The notes beneath the pieces were generated by a model that searched no databases, was not told the origin of the DNA, and saw nothing but the letters and a program-made list of their open reading frames with translations. DNA of 64,000 bases. Origin: Fervidobacterium pennivorans DSM 9078 (lineage in GTDB: Bacteria; Thermotogota; Thermotogae; Thermotogales; Fervidobacteriaceae). The stretch lies in contig NC_017095.1 of NCBI RefSeq assembly GCF_000235405.2, positions 1,575,501-1,639,500 of the forward strand, in the 5' to 3' direction. The position numbers and the translations under genes were made by a program. This document shows, one piece after another, positions 16,115-54,897 of this stretch (position 1 is its first letter; every line of letters starts with the position of its first letter).

Positions 16115-17710
16115 TCATTTCGGTAATTCCAGAATGTTACCAACTATGTAAGGTTCCTTTCTCTGCTCATCGTAAGGTCTTTCGTCATATGCTATCACTG
16201 TTTTAATTTTCTTACCATACCTCACGTTGTCTCTAATTCTTTCAATCATATAATTCAAAAGTGTTGTGCCACCAGTTAGATTTATCACTAACTCTGTAGC
16301 GTCTTTCAACCTCTCAGTTGCTTGCTGAACAACTTTGCTGGTCTCATCCAAACCTTTGAACGGATCATTCACAAGTATCACGTGATACTCACCTTTGAAT
16401 TCTGCTTTTTCAATAATCTCTGGCACAAGCTTTTCGCCCTGCTCGGATGTGACAATTACAAGTAAATCTCCAGGAATTGATTTCAGAACTGTATAAAGCG
16501 CGCCTGGTGTCGTTCCAAGTGGTGAAAGTATAGCTTTCAACTGTTTACTTGGCGTGTAATTCGAAACTATTGATTCGAAATCCTTTTCAATCAAATTTTG
16601 AATCTCTCTTTGAATATTCTGAGGGCTTGGCAACGAATCTTTGTTAAATCCAAAATGAGCTATGTGGTTTCGAGCCTGGGCTAAAGTATCATTACTAACC
16701 GAAATAGCTTCACGCTCTTCTACGTCGAACAATTTGTCGAATTTTCCCTCTTTGAAAAGCACAACGTTCTTCAAATATTCCCTTGCCAGTCTGGTTGCCA
16801 TACCTAAATCGTTTGTTTCATAATAGAATTTAAGCAGCTCTCTTTCGGCATTTAATTCATTTTCGCTAAGCACAGGCTCATTTTTAGCGGAATCGCCAGG
16901 TGCAAAAAACTTTTCATACCTATCCACAATTGCATCAAAAAGCAAGTCAAACTGCGGGATGAATTCCCTGACGTCTTCACGAACAGCTGAGCCTTCTTCC
17001 TTCAGTAAACCCAAGAATTTATTCAAAGACTTGTGAATCATCCTTATTGAACCTAATCTGATTGCTTCAGATACAGACGTTATCGCATCAGCAAGGGACT
17101 TTAGCTTTCTGGGTTTTCTGTGTGAAGAGCCACCTTGCTTGTAATATCTTTCATTCCAACTCTTAATTTTGTTAGCCAGGATAGAAGCGTAACCAAACTC
17201 TTTAAAAAGCCTTGTAGCATAGATCCAGTCGGCTAAATCAATTAATTCGGTCATATCCTTACATTTCGTCATGTTTGTAGCCCTATCATACTTACCGTAC
17301 AGAACCTTCATTTCAACATTCTTCAATTCGCGCAAGAACATATAAATAACAACTGCTGTCATGGTAATTGATCTAAAAGAATTGGTGACATCCAAAATAA
17401 CCAGGTCTCCATCATCTATCAACTCCGCAGCCTTTCGTACAAAATCAGTTACGCTTTCATCTTCCGAAATTTTAATCTTCTGGACTTTGATGCCGTTTTC
17501 ACTGCAAAACCGTTCAACATTGTACTTATCGTATGTTTTCATAGCTTCCTCAGTCAAGAAAAACGCAGCTGAGATATCCTTGCCTTCCTTCATCTTCAAA
17601 AATTCCAACAAAGCAAGTGGGAATAACTCCTGAGATGTTTCAAAATCATCAAACTTAACTATAGCCTTTTGATACGAACTTGTTCCCAAGAACGTAAGTA
17701 CCTTTACCAT
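16115..17710 (-). CDS. csx1: Csx1/Csm6-type CARF-HEPN-CARF effector (TM1812-like)
   Basis: CARF-HEPN proteins bind cyclic oligoadenylate made by Cas10 and then cut RNA non-specifically. In this protein (531 aa) residues 1-145 look like a TM1812-type CARF domain (FLGTSSYQKAIVKF near the start, LDVTNSFRS at 106-114, in the place of the DxTHG motif). The central helical part holds the HEPN RNase motif R-x4-H in ARNHIAHFG (R347, H352). The C-terminal 140 residues look like a second Rossmann-like ligand domain (LSPLGTTPGALYTVL, then INLTGGTTLLNYM at about 476-488). The ATG at 17710 has GGAGG eight bases upstream. It stands alone on its strand, between array 2 and the cas6 relic. Confidence 0.85.
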   Translation of the reverse strand: MVKVLTFLGTSSYQKAIVKFDDFETSQELFPLALLEFLKMKEGKDISAAFFLTEEAMKTYDKYNVERFCSENGIKVQKIKISEDESVTDFVRKAAELIDDGDLVILDVTNSFRSITMTAVVIYMFLRELKNVEMKVLYGKYDRATNMTKCKDMTELIDLADWIYATRLFKEFGYASILANKIKSWNERYYKQGGSSHRKPRKLKSLADAITSVSEAIRLGSIRMIHKSLNKFLGLLKEEGSAVREDVREFIPQFDLLFDAIVDRYEKFFAPGDSAKNEPVLSENELNAERELLKFYYETNDLGMATRLAREYLKNVVLFKEGKFDKLFDVEEREAISVSNDTLAQARNHIAHFGFNKDSLPSPQNIQREIQNLIEKDFESIVSNYTPSKQLKAILSPLGTTPGALYTVLKSIPGDLLVIVTSEQGEKLVPEIIEKAEFKGEYHVILVNDPFKGLDETSKVVQQATERLKDATELVINLTGGTTLLNYMIERIRDNVRYGKKIKTVIAYDERPYDEQRKEPYIVGNILELPK

Positions 17711-17897
17711 ATTCGATACCTCCACAGTTGGATTTACAAAACTCCTAACTTTCCATGCCTAAATCTTTCAACACAACCACACTCAAAACCTTCTTACCAA
17801 ACACAACTGTTTTTGAAAAACGCGTGGAAAGAAACTTTTATCAAACGCCAGCCTGCGTCTATATACCTTATCCTGACTTCCAAAACGACACTCATTG

Positions 17898-18853: not shown

Positions 18854-19645
18854 TTAGCCTTCTTTTAGTTTGATTTGAAGTTTTTCTTTTAACAATGCCG
18901 AAGGGAAGTTATGCCCCACGGCAAATTTCACAGTGCCTGGTAGTTTTCCCGTGTAAATGAGTTTACCAGACAAGTATAGTTCTGCCTCTTTGCCAATAAG
19001 TTCATCAGGCAGATATAGGTTTGCAAAGCCATCAGATACTTCGATTATTATATTCTCATACTTATCAGAAGTCGATGCAGCAGCTATTGAAGGTAGGAGC
19101 TTTTCTAATTCTTCCTTTTTGAAAAATTTTGACAGGTCTATTATTTTTTCATCATCTTCATTTTCTGAATGTTCTTCATAGTTAATCATACTACTCAAAA
19201 ATGCATCGTAAAATATTTTGATTCTATTTATTTCGAAGTTATAGAACTTCTTCCAAATACCTTTGTACCTATTTGCCATCTTCTTAAAATTATCGAGGAT
19301 TTTTTCAAATTCATCTTTTTTTACCCTGCCGACAACTTCACAATACTTTGGACTAATATAAAAGTTTATTGGAGTTACTTTTAGACTTCTGACCATGTGG
19401 TCTATTTCAATTTTGTATCCTGCTCCCCCTAATACCAACTCTGTCGTCAGAAAGATTACATTGTACATCTCTCCGATTTTCTCAAAAACAAGTCCATATA
19501 CTATGTCCTCACCATAGATAGCCACTATGTCCCCAATCTCTAATTTTTCTGTACCTTGTTCCAATAGTTTCCTAATTTTCTTTGCCCCTTTTTTATACTC
19601 TTCAAAAATTTGTTCAAGGTATTTCATTTCATTTCTATCGCTCAT
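18854..19645 (-). CDS. calpT: MazF-like protein with a C-terminal tail domain, CalpT-like
   Basis: I see a helical N-terminus, then a MazF/PemK-like barrel pattern (EIGDIVAIYGEDIVYGLVF, YNVIFLTTE, LKVTPINFYIS, VVGRV at about residues 35-130), then a charged linker (ENEDDEKI). A C-terminal 65-residue beta-rich domain follows, with DEL and LIYTGKLPG motifs. In the CalpL-CalpT-CalpS type III signalling system the MazF homologue CalpT holds a sigma factor and is cut by the Lon-SAVED protease. This gene sits directly after a sigma-factor gene, and a Lon-SAVED gene lies 12 kb away. I chose the ATG at 19645, which has GGAGG eight bases upstream; a GTG at 19702 overlapping the sigma stop would add 19 residues. 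The CalpT assignment rests on fold pattern and context, not on measured similarity. Confidence 0.6.
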   Translation of the reverse strand: MSDRNEMKYLEQIFEEYKKGAKKIRKLLEQGTEKLEIGDIVAIYGEDIVYGLVFEKIGEMYNVIFLTTELVLGGAGYKIEIDHMVRSLKVTPINFYISPKYCEVVGRVKKDEFEKILDNFKKMANRYKGIWKKFYNFEINRIKIFYDAFLSSMINYEEHSENEDDEKIIDLSKFFKKEELEKLLPSIAAASTSDKYENIIIEVSDGFANLYLPDELIGKEAELYLSGKLIYTGKLPGTVKFAVGHNFPSALLKEKLQIKLKEG

Positions 19646-19698: not shown

Positions 19699-20400
19699 TC
19701 ACTTATTAAAACGAATATGGTCACATATTTCTGACTTGTATTTTTGTATTACGATTTTTACAACACTTGGACTGACATTCACAACTTCCTCAAAGAACTT
19801 CCTTATTCTTTCTCTTACCCGCTGGTGGGCTTTGTATCTTGCATCAGCGGACGGATATTCTCTAAACTGGGCATCCTTAGAGTAACCTGAGTAATAGATA
19901 AAATCGCATAAATCCAGTTCCTTCCCTTTCACGTAACTTTTAAATTCCTCAAAGATGTCTTGAGCTACCAATTTATCGAAGATTTCTTCTGATGTTAGAG
20001 CCGTATTGTCAGAAATCACCTCTGACAGCTCGAGCTCATCATCTTCCTCTTTAACGGTCACATCAATAGACAGAGGCTTTTTTTCGCTTGCTTTTCGAAA
20101 ATCTTCTATTAGGTTGTCAACTATTCTGTTGAAATAAGTTGCTATTTGTAACGGTTCAAAATCCTTCAGTTTTTGCTTGAATTTGAGGATTCTTTCCATA
20201 GACTGTTGGTATACTTCATCAACAACTTCTTCCATTTGACCAAGTCCGAGATTTTCAGGTTTTCCGCATGTTTTTTTGTACACTTTCGCGGCAATAAACT
20301 CACGAACTTGCTTATCACACTGGGCGGAAAAAGTATTGTTGAACAGGCTCTTGACACACTTTCCCAACCTTGAAAGGTCATACTCTTTCCACACATTCAT
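19699..20400 (-). CDS. calpS: Sigma-70 family (ECF-like) factor, CalpS-like
   Basis: The product (233 aa) has sigma region 2 features: EEVVDEVYQQSMERILKF, then IATYFNRIVDNLIEDFRKA with the Asp-x-x-Arg-Lys pattern, and KKPLSIDV. An acidic linker follows, then a region 4 helix-turn-helix candidate (YSKDAQFREYPSADARYKAHQRVRERIRKFF). Such factors direct RNA polymerase to a small regulon. It lies in an operon after a 135-codon gene (26-bp overlap) and before the MazF-like gene (near-zero gap). In the Calp system the ECF sigma factor is released when CalpT is cut. The start is ATG at 20400; the ribosome site is modest. Confidence 0.7.
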   Translation of the reverse strand: MNVWKEYDLSRLGKCVKSLFNNTFSAQCDKQVREFIAAKVYKKTCGKPENLGLGQMEEVVDEVYQQSMERILKFKQKLKDFEPLQIATYFNRIVDNLIEDFRKASEKKPLSIDVTVKEEDDELELSEVISDNTALTSEEIFDKLVAQDIFEEFKSYVKGKELDLCDFIYYSGYSKDAQFREYPSADARYKAHQRVRERIRKFFEEVVNVSPSVVKIVIQKYKSEICDHIRFNK

Positions 20401-20785
20401 CACTCCAATTCTCCAAGTCTAACGCGCAACCACTTAGAAATTGTATTTTCTTTTGTCTTTTGTAGTTTTCAATTACGGGTGCTGGAAGTATGAAAACGTA
20501 ACGTCCCCCGATATTCATAATTCGGCTCTCATTCATAAATATTCTCTCACTTGCGAAGGGGCAACATTCAAAGACTTTGAACACAGCATCTGAATACTTT
20601 TTCGTTGACAAGAAAGACACCAAGTAATGGAATCCTTTTTTTTGAATCAATCCTGGTCTTGAAGGACGTTCACCTTTGCGTGAATAATACAAGTCTTTGA
20701 TTCCCAAATTTTTTGCTACAGTGTTTTTTATATCTGAAAATATAACAAGCTGCGATTTGAAGTTGTATTCATGGAGTTTTTTCAT
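20378..20785 (-). CDS. Unknown 135-residue protein, first gene of the sigma factor operon
   Basis: The ATG at 20785 has GGGGGAGG four bases upstream, and its end overlaps the sigma-factor gene by about 23 bases. The middle reads SRKGERPSRPGLIQKKGFHYLVSFLSTKK in two pieces, with an Arg-Pro-(hydrophobic) step and a hydrophobic strand ending in STK. That is reminiscent of the first half of MazF/PemK barrels, but the match is too weak to claim. It has four Cys and no membrane segment. By position it should work with the sigma factor and the MazF-like protein. Confidence 0.7.
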   Translation of the reverse strand: MKKLHEYNFKSQLVIFSDIKNTVAKNLGIKDLYYSRKGERPSRPGLIQKKGFHYLVSFLSTKKYSDAVFKVFECCPFASERIFMNESRIMNIGGRYVFILPAPVIENYKRQKKIQFLSGCALDLENWSDECVERV

Positions 20786-20919
20786 ATGCCCTCCCCCAAC
20801 ATCATTGTTTGTTAATTCTAAACTTATTATAGCATTTTTTTAGATGTCAAATGAAGTAGTAATTTTTGTTTATATATCTGGAAGGATACTCAATTGCGTA
20901 GTTAAGGGGGATGAAACTA
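20786..20919. promoter_or_regulatory. Divergent promoter region between the sigma operon and cas2
   Basis: On the minus strand TATAAT is preceded by TG one base earlier (extended -10), with TTGACA 13 bases further up. That spacing is short, so the extended -10 probably carries the promoter for the sigma operon. On the plus strand a TATATA lies about 50 bp before the cas2 start. I see no operator-like palindrome. Confidence 0.45.
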
Positions 20920-21183
20920 ATGTATGTGATAATGGTATACGATGTAAACGTGAAAAGGGTTAACAAGGTTTTGAAAATAGGGCGAAAATATTTAAATTGG
21001 ACTTTAAGGTCCGTGCTTGAGGGGCTTCTTACGGAGGAGTTGTACGAAAACCTGAAAGAAGAAATAATGAGGGTAATAAATACAGAGGAGGACGCTGTTT
21101 ATTTCTATTTGATTGATACTTACAATGCGCCTCACAAAACTATTATTGGGGCGACACCAGGTGAGTTTAATTTCATTGAATAG
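20920..21183 (+). CDS. cas2: CRISPR adaptation protein Cas2 (first copy)
   Basis: Cas2 dimers bridge two Cas1 dimers in the spacer integration complex. The product (87 aa) starts MYVIMVYDVN, the family's first strand with the conserved Asp, and has the usual length. The ATG at 20920 has AAGGGGG nine bases upstream; an ATG nine bases earlier would touch that site. It faces the second cas2 gene, with 5 bp between the two stop codons. It is not on the cas1 strand. Confidence 0.88.
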   Translation: MYVIMVYDVNVKRVNKVLKIGRKYLNWTLRSVLEGLLTEELYENLKEEIMRVINTEEDAVYFYLIDTYNAPHKTIIGATPGEFNFIE

Positions 21184-21188
21184 TGTGT

Positions 21189-21467
21189 TTATTCAATGAA
21201 ATTTGTTAAACTGTTAGCCTTGTCTTTTCCTATTATTTCCACTTTCAACTTTGTTCCCTTGGGTAGGGAGTATATTACCAATCCGTCGTCGTCTTCTTTG
21301 CGGATATACTTCGATACTCTTCTAATTAGTTCTTTTAGAGCTCCTCTTGGTAGATATCCCTCAAACGTTGAGTTCTGTTTCCAAACAAGGAATCTAAGTA
21401 GTAATTTGTGAACCTTTGCAACACGTTTCTCGTTTACATCGTACACTAATAAGTATCTTTTGCTCAT
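21189..21467 (-). CDS. cas2: CRISPR adaptation protein Cas2 (second copy)
   Basis: The product (92 aa) begins MSKRYLLVYDVNEKRV, with the Cas2 strand and Asp, followed by a long basic helix (VAKVHKLLLRFLVWKQNSTFEGYLP) seen in Cas2 proteins of type III and I-B loci. The ATG at 21467 has GGAGG eight bases upstream. It is clearly different in sequence from the other Cas2 and is encoded convergently with it. Either copy could serve the single Cas1 of the window. Confidence 0.88.
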   Translation of the reverse strand: MSKRYLLVYDVNEKRVAKVHKLLLRFLVWKQNSTFEGYLPRGALKELIRRVSKYIRKEDDDGLVIYSLPKGTKLKVEIIGKDKANSLTNFIE

Positions 21468-21648
21468 CTTACTCCCTCCTAAAAAGTTGTCCAAATGAAT
21501 CCTTCATATATCTAAACGCACAAACTTAGGCATCCTGACAAAGAGAGGATTTGTTTTGTTTTATACTATCTGTCAAAAATCTTTGTCGAATGCGTTTTCT
21601 ATTTTGGAAAGGTTAAATTTCCAAAGTAGCTTTGGGAGGCGAAATACT

Positions 21649-21885
21649 ATGCAAAAAGAGATTTGCAGATTTGTGGACTATATTATAGAGGTTGAGAACA
21701 AGAGGGCAGCGATTTACATCTCAGACGAGTTGGTGTATAAACCAGCTGTAGTAAGGTTCCATGGACAAGAAATCTATCGTGGAAGGCTTCCGTATGTTTT
21801 GTTTCTACAGTTACCAGCACACATGTCTCCGGAAGTCGTTGGTTTCCTGTTGCGCATTAAGACCGGCTCTGTTTTCAAAACTTAG
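21649..21885 (+). CDS. Orphan small protein related to the tail of the MazF-like protein
   Basis: The product (78 aa) aligns by eye along most of its length with the last 65 residues of the MazF-like protein at 18854-19645. Shared positions include a Tyr-(I/L) strand, DEL, an Ala about six residues later, a Gly, IY, a Gly, LP and a final IK. The two are SDELVYKPAVVRF / PDELIGKEAELYL, then HGQEIYRGRLP / SGKLIYTGKLP. It lacks the MazF-like part. The ATG at 21649 has GGGAGG nine bases upstream. It stands alone on the plus strand between two minus-strand genes. I infer a competitor or partner of the CalpT tail. Confidence 0.65.
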   Translation: MQKEICRFVDYIIEVENKRAAIYISDELVYKPAVVRFHGQEIYRGRLPYVLFLQLPAHMSPEVVGFLLRIKTGSVFKT

Positions 21886-21942: not shown

Positions 21943-22683
21943 TCAGATAATATCTCTACCCACAAGCTCTATACAACCAAAACCTGCGGAATTTTTAGAA
22001 CCAAGCCCTGCATCGTATGCTAATTTAAGGATTTCATAGTCCCCTTCCAGCTCAAGCACTGTTATCCAAGCATCTAACTTCCTTTCTTTGTACCCCACAA
22101 CCACCCTCTTCGGATTTGGGGCAATGTTTTTTATTCTCAGTTGTCCCTGAAATTCTCTACCAAATGCCGCGTGAAATTTTCTTTTGAGGTTCTCCTCTAA
22201 CAGTTTTGAAAAGATTTCATCGTGTGGTGAGTGATAAAGTGTGTATTTCTTTCCATCTTTGTCTACTGTCGAATAAACCGTAATTGGAGATTTTGTTGAA
22301 ACTACGATGTGGTCAGTTTCTGGAAGTTCAAATATCTCAATCTTTGCTGGCACGACAAAATTCCTACCCAATCTAAGGTTTTCGAATCTGCCAACTCTGT
22401 CGACAACGAATTCTATTAGTCTTTCGTCTGCCGTCGATATGATAAGGACAACATGGTCAAAGAACTTTATTGTTTTGGTTTGACTATCTATTTGGAACCT
22501 TCCAAGAAGTCTGGAAAATGAGAACAGTTTATACAAACGCTTACCAAAGGTGTATCCTTTGTCATGCAAGAATTTTCTGTATTCTTCATCATCAATTAAG
22601 TTCAGAACAAATGCTTGCAAAATGTGATTGTATTCTGTTGGAAGTTCCAACTTGTCAAATGTAAAGTTAATGTACACTCTCAA
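21943..22683 (-). CDS. cas6: crRNA-processing endoribonuclease Cas6
   Basis: Cas6 cuts the pre-crRNA within each repeat to give crRNAs with an 8-nt 5' handle. The product (246 aa) has two RAMP halves. It starts MRVYINFTFDKLELP followed by a helix, and ends with the glycine-rich loop AGLGSKNSAGFGCIEL. His residues in LYHSPHDEIFSKLLEENLKRKF near residue 150 are typical of the family's middle. The likely start is TTG at 22683, with GGAGG eight bases upstream. It is the only intact Cas6 seen, so it probably serves all three arrays, whose repeats are the same. It is the last gene of the cas1-csm operon. Confidence 0.92.
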   Translation of the reverse strand: MRVYINFTFDKLELPTEYNHILQAFVLNLIDDEEYRKFLHDKGYTFGKRLYKLFSFSRLLGRFQIDSQTKTIKFFDHVVLIISTADERLIEFVVDRVGRFENLRLGRNFVVPAKIEIFELPETDHIVVSTKSPITVYSTVDKDGKKYTLYHSPHDEIFSKLLEENLKRKFHAAFGREFQGQLRIKNIAPNPKRVVVGYKERKLDAWITVLELEGDYEILKLAYDAGLGSKNSAGFGCIELVGRDII

Positions 22684-23290
22684 GTTTACTACCTCCAATT
22701 TTTTGGGATAATTTAGTAATTAAATTTAGATCCGTGCTATCATACAAAAACAGACCAAAGTGGCCCACTCTTAATCCAACAGCGTTGGCTAAGGCTATCA
22801 TTTCTTCTGAACCGAACAGCTCAACTTTGTAGATGCTCCTTTTGTAAGGTTTCACAACGGGAATTAAAGCATAGTTGATATTCTTGCCTTGGTAAATGTG
22901 CTGTGCCAAAGCAAAGTAGTATTCTTCAATAGCTCTTTGAATGCTTTCAATGGGCTGCTCTCCAAAGTTTTCGTTAGCAAGAACATAACATTCACTGAAT
23001 GGTTGAAAGACTTTAACTGATGAATAATAAGGAAAAGCACCGCCCAAAGAGGTTTTGAGTAACCTCTTTAAGGCGGAGCCTACAGATTTTGTTGCTAATC
23101 GTACCTTTATAGTTGCATCCTTTACAATGTAATATCCATATTCGCTTGCGTATATTCTTTTTCCAAGCACGTGCGAAACGGAATGCGGAACATCTTCCAA
23201 CATTTGGGATATTTGTTGGATAAGTTCCTCTGTTACTAACGTTGGTGATTTTAAGTCCCATCTCAAAACGATTTCCAGCAAAATTTTCAC
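22667..23290 (-). CDS. Unknown RAMP-like protein between csm5 and cas6
   Basis: The product (207 aa) begins MKILLEIVLRWDLKSP, a first strand like those of RAMP proteins. Near residues 65-80 it has a basic stretch (IKVRLATKSVGSALKRLL). Its end, EMIALANAVGLRVGHFGLFLY, can be laid over the Cas6 loop region (EILKLAYDAGLGSKNSAGFG), but the second glycine motif is degraded. I infer a Cas6-like or RAMP-fold protein that has lost the usual loop. The start is GTG at 23290 with a weak AAGG site. It overlaps cas6 by about 17 bases and follows csm5 by 39 bp. Confidence 0.6.
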   Translation of the reverse strand: MKILLEIVLRWDLKSPTLVTEELIQQISQMLEDVPHSVSHVLGKRIYASEYGYYIVKDATIKVRLATKSVGSALKRLLKTSLGGAFPYYSSVKVFQPFSECYVLANENFGEQPIESIQRAIEEYYFALAQHIYQGKNINYALIPVVKPYKRSIYKVELFGSEEMIALANAVGLRVGHFGLFLYDSTDLNLITKLSQKIGGSKLESVH

Positions 23291-30316: not shown

Positions 30317-31530
30317 TCAACTATGTAAAATTAAATTTTGAGTAGAAGACGAAAATGTATGATCGATGTTGAATTTCTCGCGCTTTTTCATCATAGCAAA
30401 TATCGTCCTTAGCAATTTGTGCGCTACACTCATCATCGCTTTTTTGTATACTAACCCTTGCGCTCGTTTTCTTTGAAAATATGCTTTAAAATATTCGTTG
30501 TGTCTCACTACATTCACACTCATCAGCCAAATTATTCGTCTCAGGTGGGCATTGCCCCTTTTGGATATGCGGCTCATTTGTGTCTGCCTGATTCATCTAC
30601 GCTTGGGTCAAGCCCACAATAGGCAATTAGTTTTTTGTATGTGCTAAATCTTGAAATATCGCCAACTTCGGCAAGAAAATACAGTGCGCTATTTTCACCA
30701 ATTCCGTCAATGGACGTGAGTATTTCAACATCTTGATTAAGCGAAGCACATTTGCAATATTCTTTGAGCATCTCATCAAACTCATTAAGTTGCTCTTGTA
30801 AAAATCGAAGTTCCTTGATAGTTTGAATAAGAATCTTCTCTTTCACTGGCCAATACTGAGCGATGGAGTTGTTAGCAAGCTCTTTAAGAGTTTCTGGAGT
30901 AAGTTTTAACTTTCTACCGATTGTTTTTGAAAAGAAAACACGTAAAGAATCAATGGAGGCTTTTTGGATAGCTTTAGCAGAAGGGAAAGAAGAAAGCAAA
31001 TCCAAGATAGCATCATTGTAGATGTTGGTCACTTTTTCAAGTTCAGGGAAGAGGAGAGAAAGAAGCTTTTCGATGTCGTTTTTGACTCTTGAGATTTGAT
31101 GAGTGATGCTTTCCTTTTTCCTTGCAATATCCCGAAAATCTGAGTTGAGGAAAGAAGAAGTAGGAAGAATGTGATGGGTATAGAAGATGGTAAGAGCAAT
31201 AGAGCGAGCATCGATTTTGTCAGTTTTAGTTTTCCTAAGCCCAACGGGAAGAGATTTGTTAACAAGCAAAGGATTAAGAACGACACAAGAGAAATCATTG
31301 AGAGAGAGGAAAGAAAGAAGGTTAAGATGGTAACAGCCAGTAGACTCCATAGCGATAAGGACAGAAGACTTAGGGAAAACGGAGAGCTTTTGAACAAAGG
31401 AGGAAAACCCTTGTTTGGACATATCGAAAGCAGATTCGAAGATGATAGAATTAGGATTTTGGATAGCACAGGCGTTGAACTTATGCTTGGAGATGTCAAT
31501 ACCGACAAAGATGGAGAAGTTTTGAGACAT
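30317..31530 (-). pseudogene. IS110 transposase, split by a one-base deletion
   Basis: IS110 transposases join a DEDD RuvC-like domain to a C-terminal serine domain. The first frame (31530-30574) begins MSQNFSIFVGIDISKHKF with the first Asp and has KTDKIDARSIAL near residue 105 and the SIDGIGENSALYFLAEVG motif. It ends at SGRHK plus TGA. The second frame (30577-30317) continues with MSRISKRGNAHLRRIIWLMS, the normal continuation with the Ser region. Adding one A to the AAA at the junction restores a single 400-residue frame. The start ATG at 31530 has GGAGG seven bases upstream. I read it as a recent inactivating deletion or a sequencing error. Confidence 0.8.
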
Positions 31531-31759: not shown

Positions 31760-33256
31760 CTATCTCAAAATCTCGTTTATATCTAACACAGGAACATACC
31801 CTGCCTTTTTTGTTTTTCCACCCTTGAAGTAATTGTAAATCTTCCCTGGTACAAAATCTCCTAAAGCCATTCCAAAACCAAAAGCAATCGGGACAGGACA
31901 ACTTAAAAATATATGGAGTTCGTCGTAGTAAAAGTCGGTGCGTACTATTTGTGTAATTGAAAACAACTCGGAAATAATTTTTTTCCAATCTCCAAGAGGT
32001 ATATTACCTGAAGCTTCCATATTCTTTGGCATTACATGGATGATAAACCCATCTGAGATATTTTCTTTCGCATATTCTTTAACAGAAGATAACAATTTAT
32101 GTGAAGCCAATTCGATAGCTAATATAGCTTTTCGTTTGTTTGTACTATATTCCAAAACTTCATATGTAAGTTCTTGCAACATCTCCTTGGACCTCGTAAC
32201 AGTTTTTATTAACCTTAGATTTTGTTCTGTGGTTAAATTAAGAACAGGAAAGTAATCACCTTGATAATGATAAACTACGAGCTTGTCCTTCGCACCCAAA
32301 GCTATCCCAAGTCCGAGAGCAAACGCTGCAGGACCATTAATTGCTATATGCGGTATGCCTGAGTTATCTATCACATTTCTAATAATCCCATAAGACTTTT
32401 CAATATGCTCATAAAACTCATCTTCTGAAAGTTCTCTGTTAACTGAATAAGTAAGTGGAGCTCGGTATATTCTCTCAAACAAGTTACAATTTGACTCACA
32501 GTCTTTGCCTGAGAATGCTAAAACTCTTTCTTTCAACCTTTTCCACAAGCTTTCAATGTCTTGCGGTTTTGATGAAAATCTTAGCAATATAGGTATATGA
32601 AACTCTTTCTCATTCAAAAAATCAATAATTTCTCTTATGTAAGATACATTAATGTAGGAAATCAGTCCAATGTTGTTTTTATTGCAGTATGCTAATTTCT
32701 CGTCAAAGTTTTCGACTTTTAAAATCTTTCCATCTTCTGCCACTCGGCCAGTAAAAGCCAAATTTTCTGGTATGTGGTCTACAAGACGACCTACAGCAAC
32801 TGCCAATTCAAAAGATTCACCTACAAAACCTCTGTCGAAAAGCACAGATATTTTGGCATTGATTTTCTTTTCGAGAACTGCCAAAATATCACTGACTTCT
32901 GGATTATTGCTAAACGAAAAATCAACTTTGAACACAAGACATCTTGCTAAAGTCACTTTATCAGCTTCGACGACAGGAAATTTTACCTCTACAAATTTGG
33001 ACCAAACCAGCAAGTACGCCTCTTCTTTTTTAAGACCTAACGAGCCGTATTCTGTTATTAAAAGGTTAATAGCATGCTCTTTATAATTTTGCGAAAGCAA
33101 GAACTTGAAGATTTCGTAAACAATAAGCTTTCGTTGGGGTATATCCTTATCAAGTCGTGATAGGTCTACGGGTATCTCTCCTAAACTAATCTCACCTTTT
33201 TTTACAAAATCAAGATATTTTAAAACATCGTTTTTCAAGAGATTAGAATACGCCAC
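31760..33256 (-). CDS. calpL: Lon-SAVED protease, CalpL-like cyclic oligoadenylate effector
   Basis: The central part (about residues 105-215) reads as a Lon protease domain: VGESFELAVAVGRL with Ser148, ENLAFTGRVAEDGKILKV, and FDEKLAY with Lys187. The spacing (39) is close to the Ser-Lys dyad of bacterial Lon (43). The C-terminal half has two SAVED-like repeats: HIAINGPAAFALGLGIALG followed by a Tyr-rich strand, and LHIFLSCPVPIAFGFGMALG followed by YNYFKGG and YVPVLDI. SAVED domains bind cyclic oligonucleotides. The known CalpL is membrane-anchored; here the first 100 residues are hydrophilic and I see no membrane segment. The start is GTG at 33256 with GGGAGG eight bases upstream. An IS110 element follows and separates it from cas1. 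Confidence 0.78.
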   Translation of the reverse strand: MAYSNLLKNDVLKYLDFVKKGEISLGEIPVDLSRLDKDIPQRKLIVYEIFKFLLSQNYKEHAINLLITEYGSLGLKKEEAYLLVWSKFVEVKFPVVEADKVTLARCLVFKVDFSFSNNPEVSDILAVLEKKINAKISVLFDRGFVGESFELAVAVGRLVDHIPENLAFTGRVAEDGKILKVENFDEKLAYCNKNNIGLISYINVSYIREIIDFLNEKEFHIPILLRFSSKPQDIESLWKRLKERVLAFSGKDCESNCNLFERIYRAPLTYSVNRELSEDEFYEHIEKSYGIIRNVIDNSGIPHIAINGPAAFALGLGIALGAKDKLVVYHYQGDYFPVLNLTTEQNLRLIKTVTRSKEMLQELTYEVLEYSTNKRKAILAIELASHKLLSSVKEYAKENISDGFIIHVMPKNMEASGNIPLGDWKKIISELFSITQIVRTDFYYDELHIFLSCPVPIAFGFGMALGDFVPGKIYNYFKGGKTKKAGYVPVLDINEILR

Positions 33257-48990: not shown

Positions 48991-50049
48991 GATAGTGTTA
49001 ACTTGTAGTGATGAAAGAGTGTAATTGTGAAAGAATGCGATTGATATTGCCATTGTGCGTTTTCCAAAGATTCTTCACTACACAAAATCCTTGAATATAT
49101 TTCGCTAAGTTCTTCGTATTCTTCAGCCCTCGCTTGAGTCGGAAAAAGTCTTTCAACAATGAAAACTTAGATTCACATTGATTGTTTTTACCGAGCGGTA
49201 CCACTACGTGATTGATATTTCTGAACAACAGCTTTACTGCACTTTCATATGCACCAAGTCCATCAGTAATAAGTTCAATGTTTCTAGGTTTTGAATTACC
49301 AAAGAACTTCTCGAGCAATACTTTGACTTGTCCCATATCACGATACTTTGAGACATGCCAACAAAGAATTAAGTTAGTTTCGTGATCAACTAATAGCCAA
49401 ACATAGTACTTTTGTTCTTTGAACACAAGAACAGTTTCATCAGCATGAACTGAGAAAACATTTTCGATGGTAAATGTTGGAAAAAGTACAGAGAATAAAG
49501 TACACAATTTAATAACCCATTTGTATATGGTGACATGAGATACTTTGATATTAAGAGAATGAGCAAGAGAGCGATAAGACATATTGTGTTTCATATACAA
49601 AACAAAAGCCTTTAAGACGAAAAAGATAGGGAAGCGGAAATATTTAAATTTCTCAGGAATAAGGGTGACTGGTTCGGGGAGGTTAAAAGGTACTCTATCT
49701 TTGGTACGACAAGCTCTACAACGGAAGACAACGAAAGAGCGACGGACTTTGTAAATTTGCATAGATTTACCACAAGAAGTGCATTTGGGATAAGGGAAAG
49801 GGAAGTTTTTGCGTTTTTGAGAATGGGAGAGTTTGAAAGAATGATGGCAGAGTTTGCAAAGGAATTGTTGGTTACCGTATTTGTCATGACCGTTTTTGTA
49901 TAAGCTGGTGGAACCGCATTTTGGACAAGAGAGCGTTGAGTTGTTCATATCGGGATACCTCCTTTGTCGAGAGTTGGTTGGGGGGTGTCCCCTCTTTATA
50001 AGGATAATGCGGTTTTTGGAAAGTTTCAATACTTTTAGTTAACATTATC
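48991..50049 (-). mobile_element. IS6/IS240-like element, copy 1 (1059 bp)
   Basis: The ends are GATAGTGTTAACT at 48991 and, read inward from the other side, GATAATGTTAACT at 50049: 13-bp inverted repeats with one mismatch. The length equals that of copy 2. The flanks are different (TCCGTGGC in 23S, TTGAAGAA before infB), so there is no target duplication. That indicates a rearrangement through the element rather than a simple insertion. Confidence 0.9.
48998..49948 (-). CDS. IS6/IS240-like transposase with zinc-ribbon N-terminus, copy 1
   Basis: The product (316 aa) begins MNNSTLSCPKCGSTSLYKNG, a zinc-ribbon with two Cys pairs, then a second Cys-rich part (CTSCGK ... CRACRTK) and a DDE domain of the IS240 type. 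The catalytic residues are in SVHADETV (D), LITDGLGAY (D) and NNQCESKF (E). The ATG at 49948 has GGAGG nine bases upstream. The same protein is encoded by copy 2 with only a few substitutions. Confidence 0.9.
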   Translation of the reverse strand: MNNSTLSCPKCGSTSLYKNGHDKYGNQQFLCKLCHHSFKLSHSQKRKNFPFPYPKCTSCGKSMQIYKVRRSFVVFRCRACRTKDRVPFNLPEPVTLIPEKFKYFRFPIFFVLKAFVLYMKHNMSYRSLAHSLNIKVSHVTIYKWVIKLCTLFSVLFPTFTIENVFSVHADETVLVFKEQKYYVWLLVDHETNLILCWHVSKYRDMGQVKVLLEKFFGNSKPRNIELITDGLGAYESAVKLLFRNINHVVVPLGKNNQCESKFSLLKDFFRLKRGLKNTKNLAKYIQGFCVVKNLWKTHNGNINRILSQLHSFITTS

Positions 50050-53838: not shown

Positions 53839-54897
53839 GATAGTGTTAACTTGTAGTGATGAAAGAGTGTAAGTGTGAAAGAATGAGATTGATATTACCA
53901 TTGTGCGTTTTCCAAAGATTCTTCACTACACAAAATCCTTGAATATATTTCGCTAAATTCTTCGTATTCTTCAGCCCTCGCTTGAGTCGGAAAAAGTCTT
54001 TCAACAATGAAAACTTGGATTCGCATTGATTGTTTTTACCGAGCGGTACCACTACGTGATTGATATTTCTGAACAACAGCTTTACTGCACTTTCATATGC
54101 ACCAAGTCCATCAGTAATAAGTTCAATGTTTCTAGGTTTTGAATTACCAAAGAACTTCTCGAGCAATACTTTGACTTGTCCCATATCACGATACTTTGAG
54201 ACATGCCAACAAAGAATTAAGTTAGTTTCGTGATCAACTAATAGCCAAACATAGTACTTTTGTTCTTTGAACACAAGAACAGTTTCATCAGCATGAACTG
54301 AGAAAACATTTTCGATGGTAAATGTTGGAAAAAGTACAGAGAATAAAGTACACAATTTAATAACCCATTTGTATATGGTGACATGAGATACTTTGATATT
54401 AAGAGAATGAGCAAGAGAGCGATAAGACATATTGTGTTTCATATACAAAACGAAAGCCTTTAAGACGAAAAAGATAGGGAAGCGGAAGTATTTAAATTTC
54501 TCAGGAATAAGGGTGACTGGTTCGGGGAGGTTAAAAGGTACTCTATCTTTGGTACGACAAGCTCTACAACGGAAGACAACGAAAGAGCGACGGACTTTGT
54601 AAATTTGCATAGATTTACCACAAGAAGTGCATTTGGGATAAGGGAAAGAGAAGTTTTTGCGTTTGTGAGAATGGGAGAGTTTGAAAGAATGATGGCAGAG
54701 TTTGCAAAGGAATTGTTGGTTACCGTATTTGTCATGACCGTTTTTGTATAAGCTGGTGGAACCGCATTTTGGACAAGAGAGCGTTGAGTTGTTCATATCG
54801 GGATACCTCCTTTGTCGAGAGTTGGTTGGGGGGTGTCCCCTCTTTATAAGGATAATGCGGTTTTTGGAAAGTTTCAATACTTTTAGTTAACATTATC
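53839..54897 (-). mobile_element. IS6/IS240-like element, copy 2 (1059 bp, with target duplication)
   Basis: The ends and length are the same as copy 1. Both flanks carry TGCTTGTA (53831-53838 and 54898-54905), an 8-bp target duplication as expected for IS6 elements, so this copy is a simple insertion. It landed in the upstream region of the gene at 54921, a few bases before its ribosome site. Confidence 0.95.
53846..54796 (-). CDS. IS6/IS240-like transposase, copy 2
   Basis: It is nearly identical to the copy 1 transposase; a few residues differ (for example KRKNFSF instead of KRKNFPF, and NLILSHL near the end). The zinc-ribbon and the D, D, E residues are intact, so it can be active. The ATG at 54796 has GGAGG nine bases upstream. 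Confidence 0.9.
   Translation of the reverse strand: MNNSTLSCPKCGSTSLYKNGHDKYGNQQFLCKLCHHSFKLSHSHKRKNFSFPYPKCTSCGKSMQIYKVRRSFVVFRCRACRTKDRVPFNLPEPVTLIPEKFKYFRFPIFFVLKAFVLYMKHNMSYRSLAHSLNIKVSHVTIYKWVIKLCTLFSVLFPTFTIENVFSVHADETVLVFKEQKYYVWLLVDHETNLILCWHVSKYRDMGQVKVLLEKFFGNSKPRNIELITDGLGAYESAVKLLFRNINHVVVPLGKNNQCESKFSLLKDFFRLKRGLKNTKNLAKYIQGFCVVKNLWKTHNGNINLILSHLHSFITTS

Follow-up and report, generated by a model that had tools for sequence, protein, structure and literature searches.

The type III CRISPR locus of the thermophilic bacterium Fervidobacterium pennivorans DSM 9078 contains a small open reading frame, called solo here, whose product resembles only the C-terminal tail of the nearby CalpT protein. 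The question is what a free copy of this tail would do in a locus that already encodes the full-length protein. The Calp cascade has been described as consisting of three proteins (CalpL, CalpT and CalpS), with control after activation credited mainly to the ring nuclease activity of CalpL. CalpL is bound to CalpT before activation (PMC12751052), cA4 then leads CalpL to cut CalpT into the fragments CalpT23 and CalpT10 (PMC12751052; PMC11417357), and CalpT23 departs bound to CalpS (PMC11417357). A preliminary description of the 64,000-nucleotide stretch analyzed here (the window) proposed that solo is a component not yet described for this system, and no description of such a component was found in the literature searched.

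By BLASTP, profile-profile comparison and PADLOC profiles, solo is a genuine homologue of the CalpT C-terminal domain and a member of the CalpT/CalpT10 tail family, which bears out the initial claim of a free-standing copy of the tail. A two-sequence BLASTP comparison with the nearby CalpT gave a gap-free alignment with 17 of 42 residues identical over CalpT residues 214-255 (E=2e-8), and the local alignment score of 80 exceeded all scores from 2000 shuffles (mean 28.9, sd 4.8, maximum 57). Identity over the whole domain is 29%. When a profile of the three solos was compared with a profile of twelve CalpT proteins, as had been recommended, the alignment was significant over 68 columns (97.7% probability, E=1.9e-12). 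The PADLOC CalpT profiles, which were built by others and are independent of this analysis, matched solo at their C-terminal ends only (PDLC01140, positions 186-241 of 252, E=7e-8; PDLC01048, positions 183-223 of 237, E=0.002), and a tblastn search of the host genome with solo returned solo itself and CalpT (E=1.5e-4) as the only matches. The gene has its own start codon and GGGAGG site, as the preliminary description stated (Table 1), and GAGG or GGAGG is found directly 5' of the orthologous starts as well.

The predicted structure points to the same family. The AlphaFold2 model of solo (pLDDT 90.3), built from an alignment of four sequences, consists of six short strands followed by a helix and a final strand. 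When this model was searched against the PDB with Foldseek, one match fell below E=0.001, and it was chain C of entry 8B0U, titled 'Structure of the CalpL/T10 complex', an entry that also contains CalpL. The match covers 75 aligned columns at 13% identity (E=6.5e-5) with TM values of 0.82/0.84; the model is a prediction, and CalpT tails were among the sequences of its alignment. The superposition suggested earlier therefore succeeded on solved CalpT10 rather than on the CalpT tail of the same genome; with that reservation, neither of the two outcomes named beforehand as refuting the claim occurred. The model of full-length CalpT was weak (pLDDT 51 overall, about 53-77 over the tail) and was used for strand order only; the order of strands and helix in its tail is that of solo, with positions shifted throughout by about 207-208 residues. 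At the level of sequence profiles, the tail family profile (A7, which includes two solos) matched 8B0U chain D, CalpT10, at E=1.6e-7, and a search of PDB sequences with the three-solo profile alone gave no significant match. Comparison of the solo model with a viral fold library gave no match below E=0.001.

Solo is a domain paralogue and not a CalpT, because it has neither the MazF-like domain nor the Ala-rich linker. The MazF-like N-terminal part that holds CalpS is absent, the profile match being restricted to positions 183-241. Directly before the tail, the aligned CalpT proteins have an Ala-rich motif (IAAAS, KAAAS, LVAAT, ILAAD or similar) that is the presumed CalpL cleavage site or degron, and the start of solo is past this motif. 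The tail itself is probably the CalpL-docking domain, because CalpL and CalpT are bound before activation, CalpT23 exits with CalpS and a CalpL/T10 complex has been solved. This assignment draws on the title of 8B0U and on secondary accounts.

In the best-supported reading, solo would serve as a docking-domain decoy or mimic the cleavage product: it would be a free-standing version of the CalpL-docking domain that arose by duplication of the 3' end of calpT and competes with CalpT-CalpS on CalpL. This reading is given a probability of roughly 0.55. Solo would fold like CalpT10 and bind CalpL at the site used by the CalpT tail, and it would occupy CalpL yet be no substrate, because it lacks both the CalpS-holding MazF-like part and the presumed cut linker. 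By competing with CalpT-CalpS for docking, solo could reduce leaky cleavage in the absence of cA4, impose a threshold or delay that damps or times the release of CalpS, and help switch the response off in a way akin to a permanent product inhibitor. Binding to CalpL, inhibition and physiological timing are what we infer here from the homology, predicted fold, conservation and location of solo. CalpL, the presumed partner, is intact in this genome, and relatives keep its putative Ser148/Lys187 dyad without exception. The earlier proposal of a product mimic fits well with a predicted fold that matches CalpT10 as solved on CalpL. The proposal of a decoy substrate may hold in part; a docking decoy would fit, whereas a decoy that is itself cut is a weakened idea because solo lacks the Ala-rich linker taken for the cleavage site.

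Table 1. Features of the Calp region in the window, and the stand-alone tails of genus g306 (L numbers denote separate loci)
Feature	Coordinates	Strand	Basis
Solo, CalpT10-like domain protein, 78 aa	21649..21885	+	homology and predicted fold
Shine-Dalgarno-like GGGAGG, 9 nt 5' of the solo ATG at 21649	21634..21639	+	read from sequence
CalpT, MazF-like anti-sigma, 282 aa	18854..19702	-	PADLOC CRISPR-T E=1.7e-57, Unk_02 E=5.8e-99
CalpT C-terminal tail domain (CalpT10-like), paralogue of solo	18857..19063	-	BLASTP, alignment, profile-profile
IAAAS linker just before the CalpT tail, inferred cleavage site/degron	19073..19087	-	CalpT alignment; Ala-rich motif recurs in other CalpT
CalpS, ECF-like sigma factor, 234 aa	19699..20403	-	weak matches to type III-E sigma (4e-6) and sigma70-ECF (7e-4); adjoins CalpT
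ORF135, conserved, upstream of and overlapping calpS	20378..20785	-	locus comparison
cas2, first copy	20911..21183	+	PF09827
cas2, second copy, divergent neighbour of solo	21189..21494	-	PF09827
cas6, convergent neighbour of solo	21943..22698	-	PF01881 E=2.7e-34
CalpL, Lon-SAVED protease, 498 aa, presumed solo partner	31760..33256	-	PADLOC; homologue comparison
g306 stand-alone CalpT-tail proteins	L126:9855-10160, L127:9764-10120, L169:334-663		

Both type III-A and type III-B cas genes are present in the window. The gene order on the minus strand is calpL, cas1, cas10, csm2-5 and cas6, after which solo lies on the plus strand, and past solo come cas2, a plus-strand cas2, ORF135, calpS and calpT. 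A promoter and terminator scan gave results near chance level, and comparison by eye of the regions upstream of solo and of the calpS operon found no convincing shared motif.

Several other features of this region were recorded. In nearly all Thermotogota Calp loci that were examined, ORF135 is kept upstream of calpS or calpT, and it was also seen in one locus (L108, E=3e-7) from a different phylum. It had no match in Pfam, NCBIfam or PADLOC, a relationship to MazF/CalpT was not supported by hhalign (4% probability), and it is possibly a fourth Calp component. The two cas2 genes of the locus are different, and the same pair flanks cas1 in related genomes. A 207-aa ORF (22667-23290, minus strand) that matches a PADLOC Cas6 profile at E=1e-98 is directly upstream of a second, Pfam-recognized cas6. 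CalpL is not the sole cOA effector in the locus, because a Csx1-like CARF-HEPN-CARF protein is also encoded there (16115-17725, minus strand; PADLOC PDLC01838, E=1e-243). Near-identical copies of a 343-aa IS-type transposase lie at 48998-50029 and 53846-54877 (minus strand), and a transposase-like ORF (30574-31530) is found just downstream of calpL.

Solo is kept at the same place, between cas6 and cas2, in three other genomes of the genus (G007, G008 and G005), and in all three lineages of the genus that these represent the surrounding type III CRISPR locus also contains calpL, calpT and calpS. The product is identical in G007, 51% identical in G008 by global alignment (55% by tblastn) and 38-39% identical in G005. 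Synonymous change in the solo comparisons is saturated, so dS could not be estimated; dN is 0.45-0.62. Between the solos of G000 and G008, third codon positions differ most (53 vs 30 and 23), and CalpT shows a similar substitution pattern. Phylogenetic analysis placed the solos in one clade (support 96/93) that groups with the CalpT tails of the genus at 82/79, and on these sequences the two are probably sisters. Because the solos are monophyletic and group with those tails, the simplest reading is one duplication, and the 3' end of calpT was likely duplicated in the ancestor of the genus. The solos also have fixed residues of their own. Pro32 is found in all three solos and in none of the 12 CalpT tails in the alignment, and the Gly before Lys31 is found in nine of those 12 tails but in no solo. 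Such positions may reflect altered or lost CalpL binding, and they count against a docking decoy.

The preliminary description had also called for a search for solo copies in other Calp loci, which turned them up in the three lineages of the genus and nowhere else among Thermotogota. All available Thermotogota genomes (n=103) were scanned, lone tails were confined to the host genus, and other members of the phylum that have CalpT yielded no solo; solo is thus not a general feature of Calp loci. Five other genomes of the genus had none, one of them (G004) being 60% complete. A partial tail match in G004 was considered as a solo and rejected, as it is a CalpT at a contig end followed directly by CalpL. 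The 25 genomes of another phylum (that of G197) likewise contained no solo, and all seven tail matches there sit in frames of 264-291 aa. The CalpT alignment was too variable for a deep contig scan; a scan with CalpL returned only two loci, both from Thermosipho of the same family. Searches of viral contigs with solo, CalpT and CalpL gave no match, and no solo copy was found in phage and plasmid records.

Comparison of gene order across Thermotogota bears on an alternative in which solo binds CalpL but helps it, as a stabilizer or placeholder needed once translation of calpL is uncoupled from that of calpT and the two proteins are possibly made in unequal amounts. Most other Thermotogota loci lack solo and have calpT immediately in front of calpL or overlapping it, whereas in the three solo-bearing lineages the whole cas1-cas10-cas6 operon separates calpL from calpT, which speaks for a helper. 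However, a genome of another family (G028) has the same split gene order without solo, which counts against a docking decoy as well. A helper of CalpL is considered improbable.

A second stand-alone tail was found outside Thermotogota, in a group of 125 genomes that we take to be the phylum Cloacimonadota from the presumed identity of one member (G242). Full-length CalpT proteins of this group carry the tail, and all three genomes of its genus g306 (G434, G435 and G436) encode a separate tail protein of roughly 100 aa, comprising the whole CalpT10-like region. Within the tails of Cloacimonadota, these form a single clade (95/96), and two separate origins of lone tails are required by the supported branches of the tree. 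The g306 proteins have an independent origin, from local CalpT tails, and unlike solo they have housekeeping neighbours, in the order aroA, butyrate kinase, tail, rRNA methyltransferase and thymidine kinase. In the three g306 genomes (69-89% complete) no CalpT was detected beyond the tail and no CalpL was detected; weak matches to CalpL were to 773-787-aa proteins that resemble ordinary Lon. Conservation within the genus, one probable duplication and this second, independent tail all go beyond the preliminary description.

Because g306 keeps a lone tail without detectable CalpL or CalpT, such a protein can persist for another reason. This counts against competition for CalpL and is the strongest argument that solo has a role outside the Calp cascade; the fixed residues of the solos point the same way. 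Alternatively, solo could be a slowly decaying relic of the separation of calpT and calpL. However, within Thermotogota solos occur only beside Calp genes, and a relic would not have remained an intact reading frame under strong constraint through saturated synonymous change in three lineages. This pair of explanations is judged unlikely.

A less probable alternative is that solo acts on the CalpT/CalpS side, for example by recapturing the sigma factor or CalpT23 after cleavage. Solo is paralogous to part of CalpT and could pack on it if the tail touches the MazF-like part, and competition for the sigma factor had been proposed at the outset. However, the fragment found with CalpS is the tail-less CalpT23 (PMC11417357), and the tail was solved in complex with CalpL (8B0U). 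Competition for the sigma factor is therefore unlikely, because the tail is placed on CalpL and CalpS with CalpT23. Finally, chance likeness or a spurious ORF, for which only the short length and the low whole-domain identity speak, has a negligible probability and is already refuted by the BLASTP, profile-profile, PADLOC, shuffle and fold matches and by the conserved orthologues.

If solo does dock on CalpL as a decoy, a separate CalpL-docking gene would add control at the protein level to the cascade, and solo may be an extra brake or decoy that is new to the described Calp system. It would also be a natural, small and ready-made tool to inhibit CalpL, and the idea can be tested directly, as the structure of a homologous domain bound to the protease has been solved. 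A wider generalization is tentative and somewhat short of even odds: a host-encoded copy of the docking domain, made by domain duplication, would be a genetically separate brake on a type III CRISPR protease cascade that sets its cA4 threshold, with a second independent origin in Cloacimonadota, where it may damp Calp systems in trans or serve another protease.

Among known systems, solo is conceptually similar to AcrIII-2 (PMC12751052) in that one domain of a Calp protein is used alone and is able to interfere with the cascade. However, AcrIII-2 is a viral stand-alone SAVED domain taken from CalpL that acts by degrading cA4, whereas solo is another domain, is cellular, lies within the CRISPR locus and had no matches in the viral and plasmid collections searched. 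Solo matches the last quarter of both CalpT/CRISPR-T profiles (PADLOC PDLC01048 and PDLC01140) but differs from those proteins in its missing N-terminal domain and linker. Compared to CalpT10 (8B0U), which is a cleavage product of CalpT, solo is the product of its own gene and has its own conserved residues (R7, F8, D10, P32 and R46), yet it shares with CalpT10 the predicted fold, the family profile match and a nearly equal extent (78 residues in solo, 76 in CalpT10).
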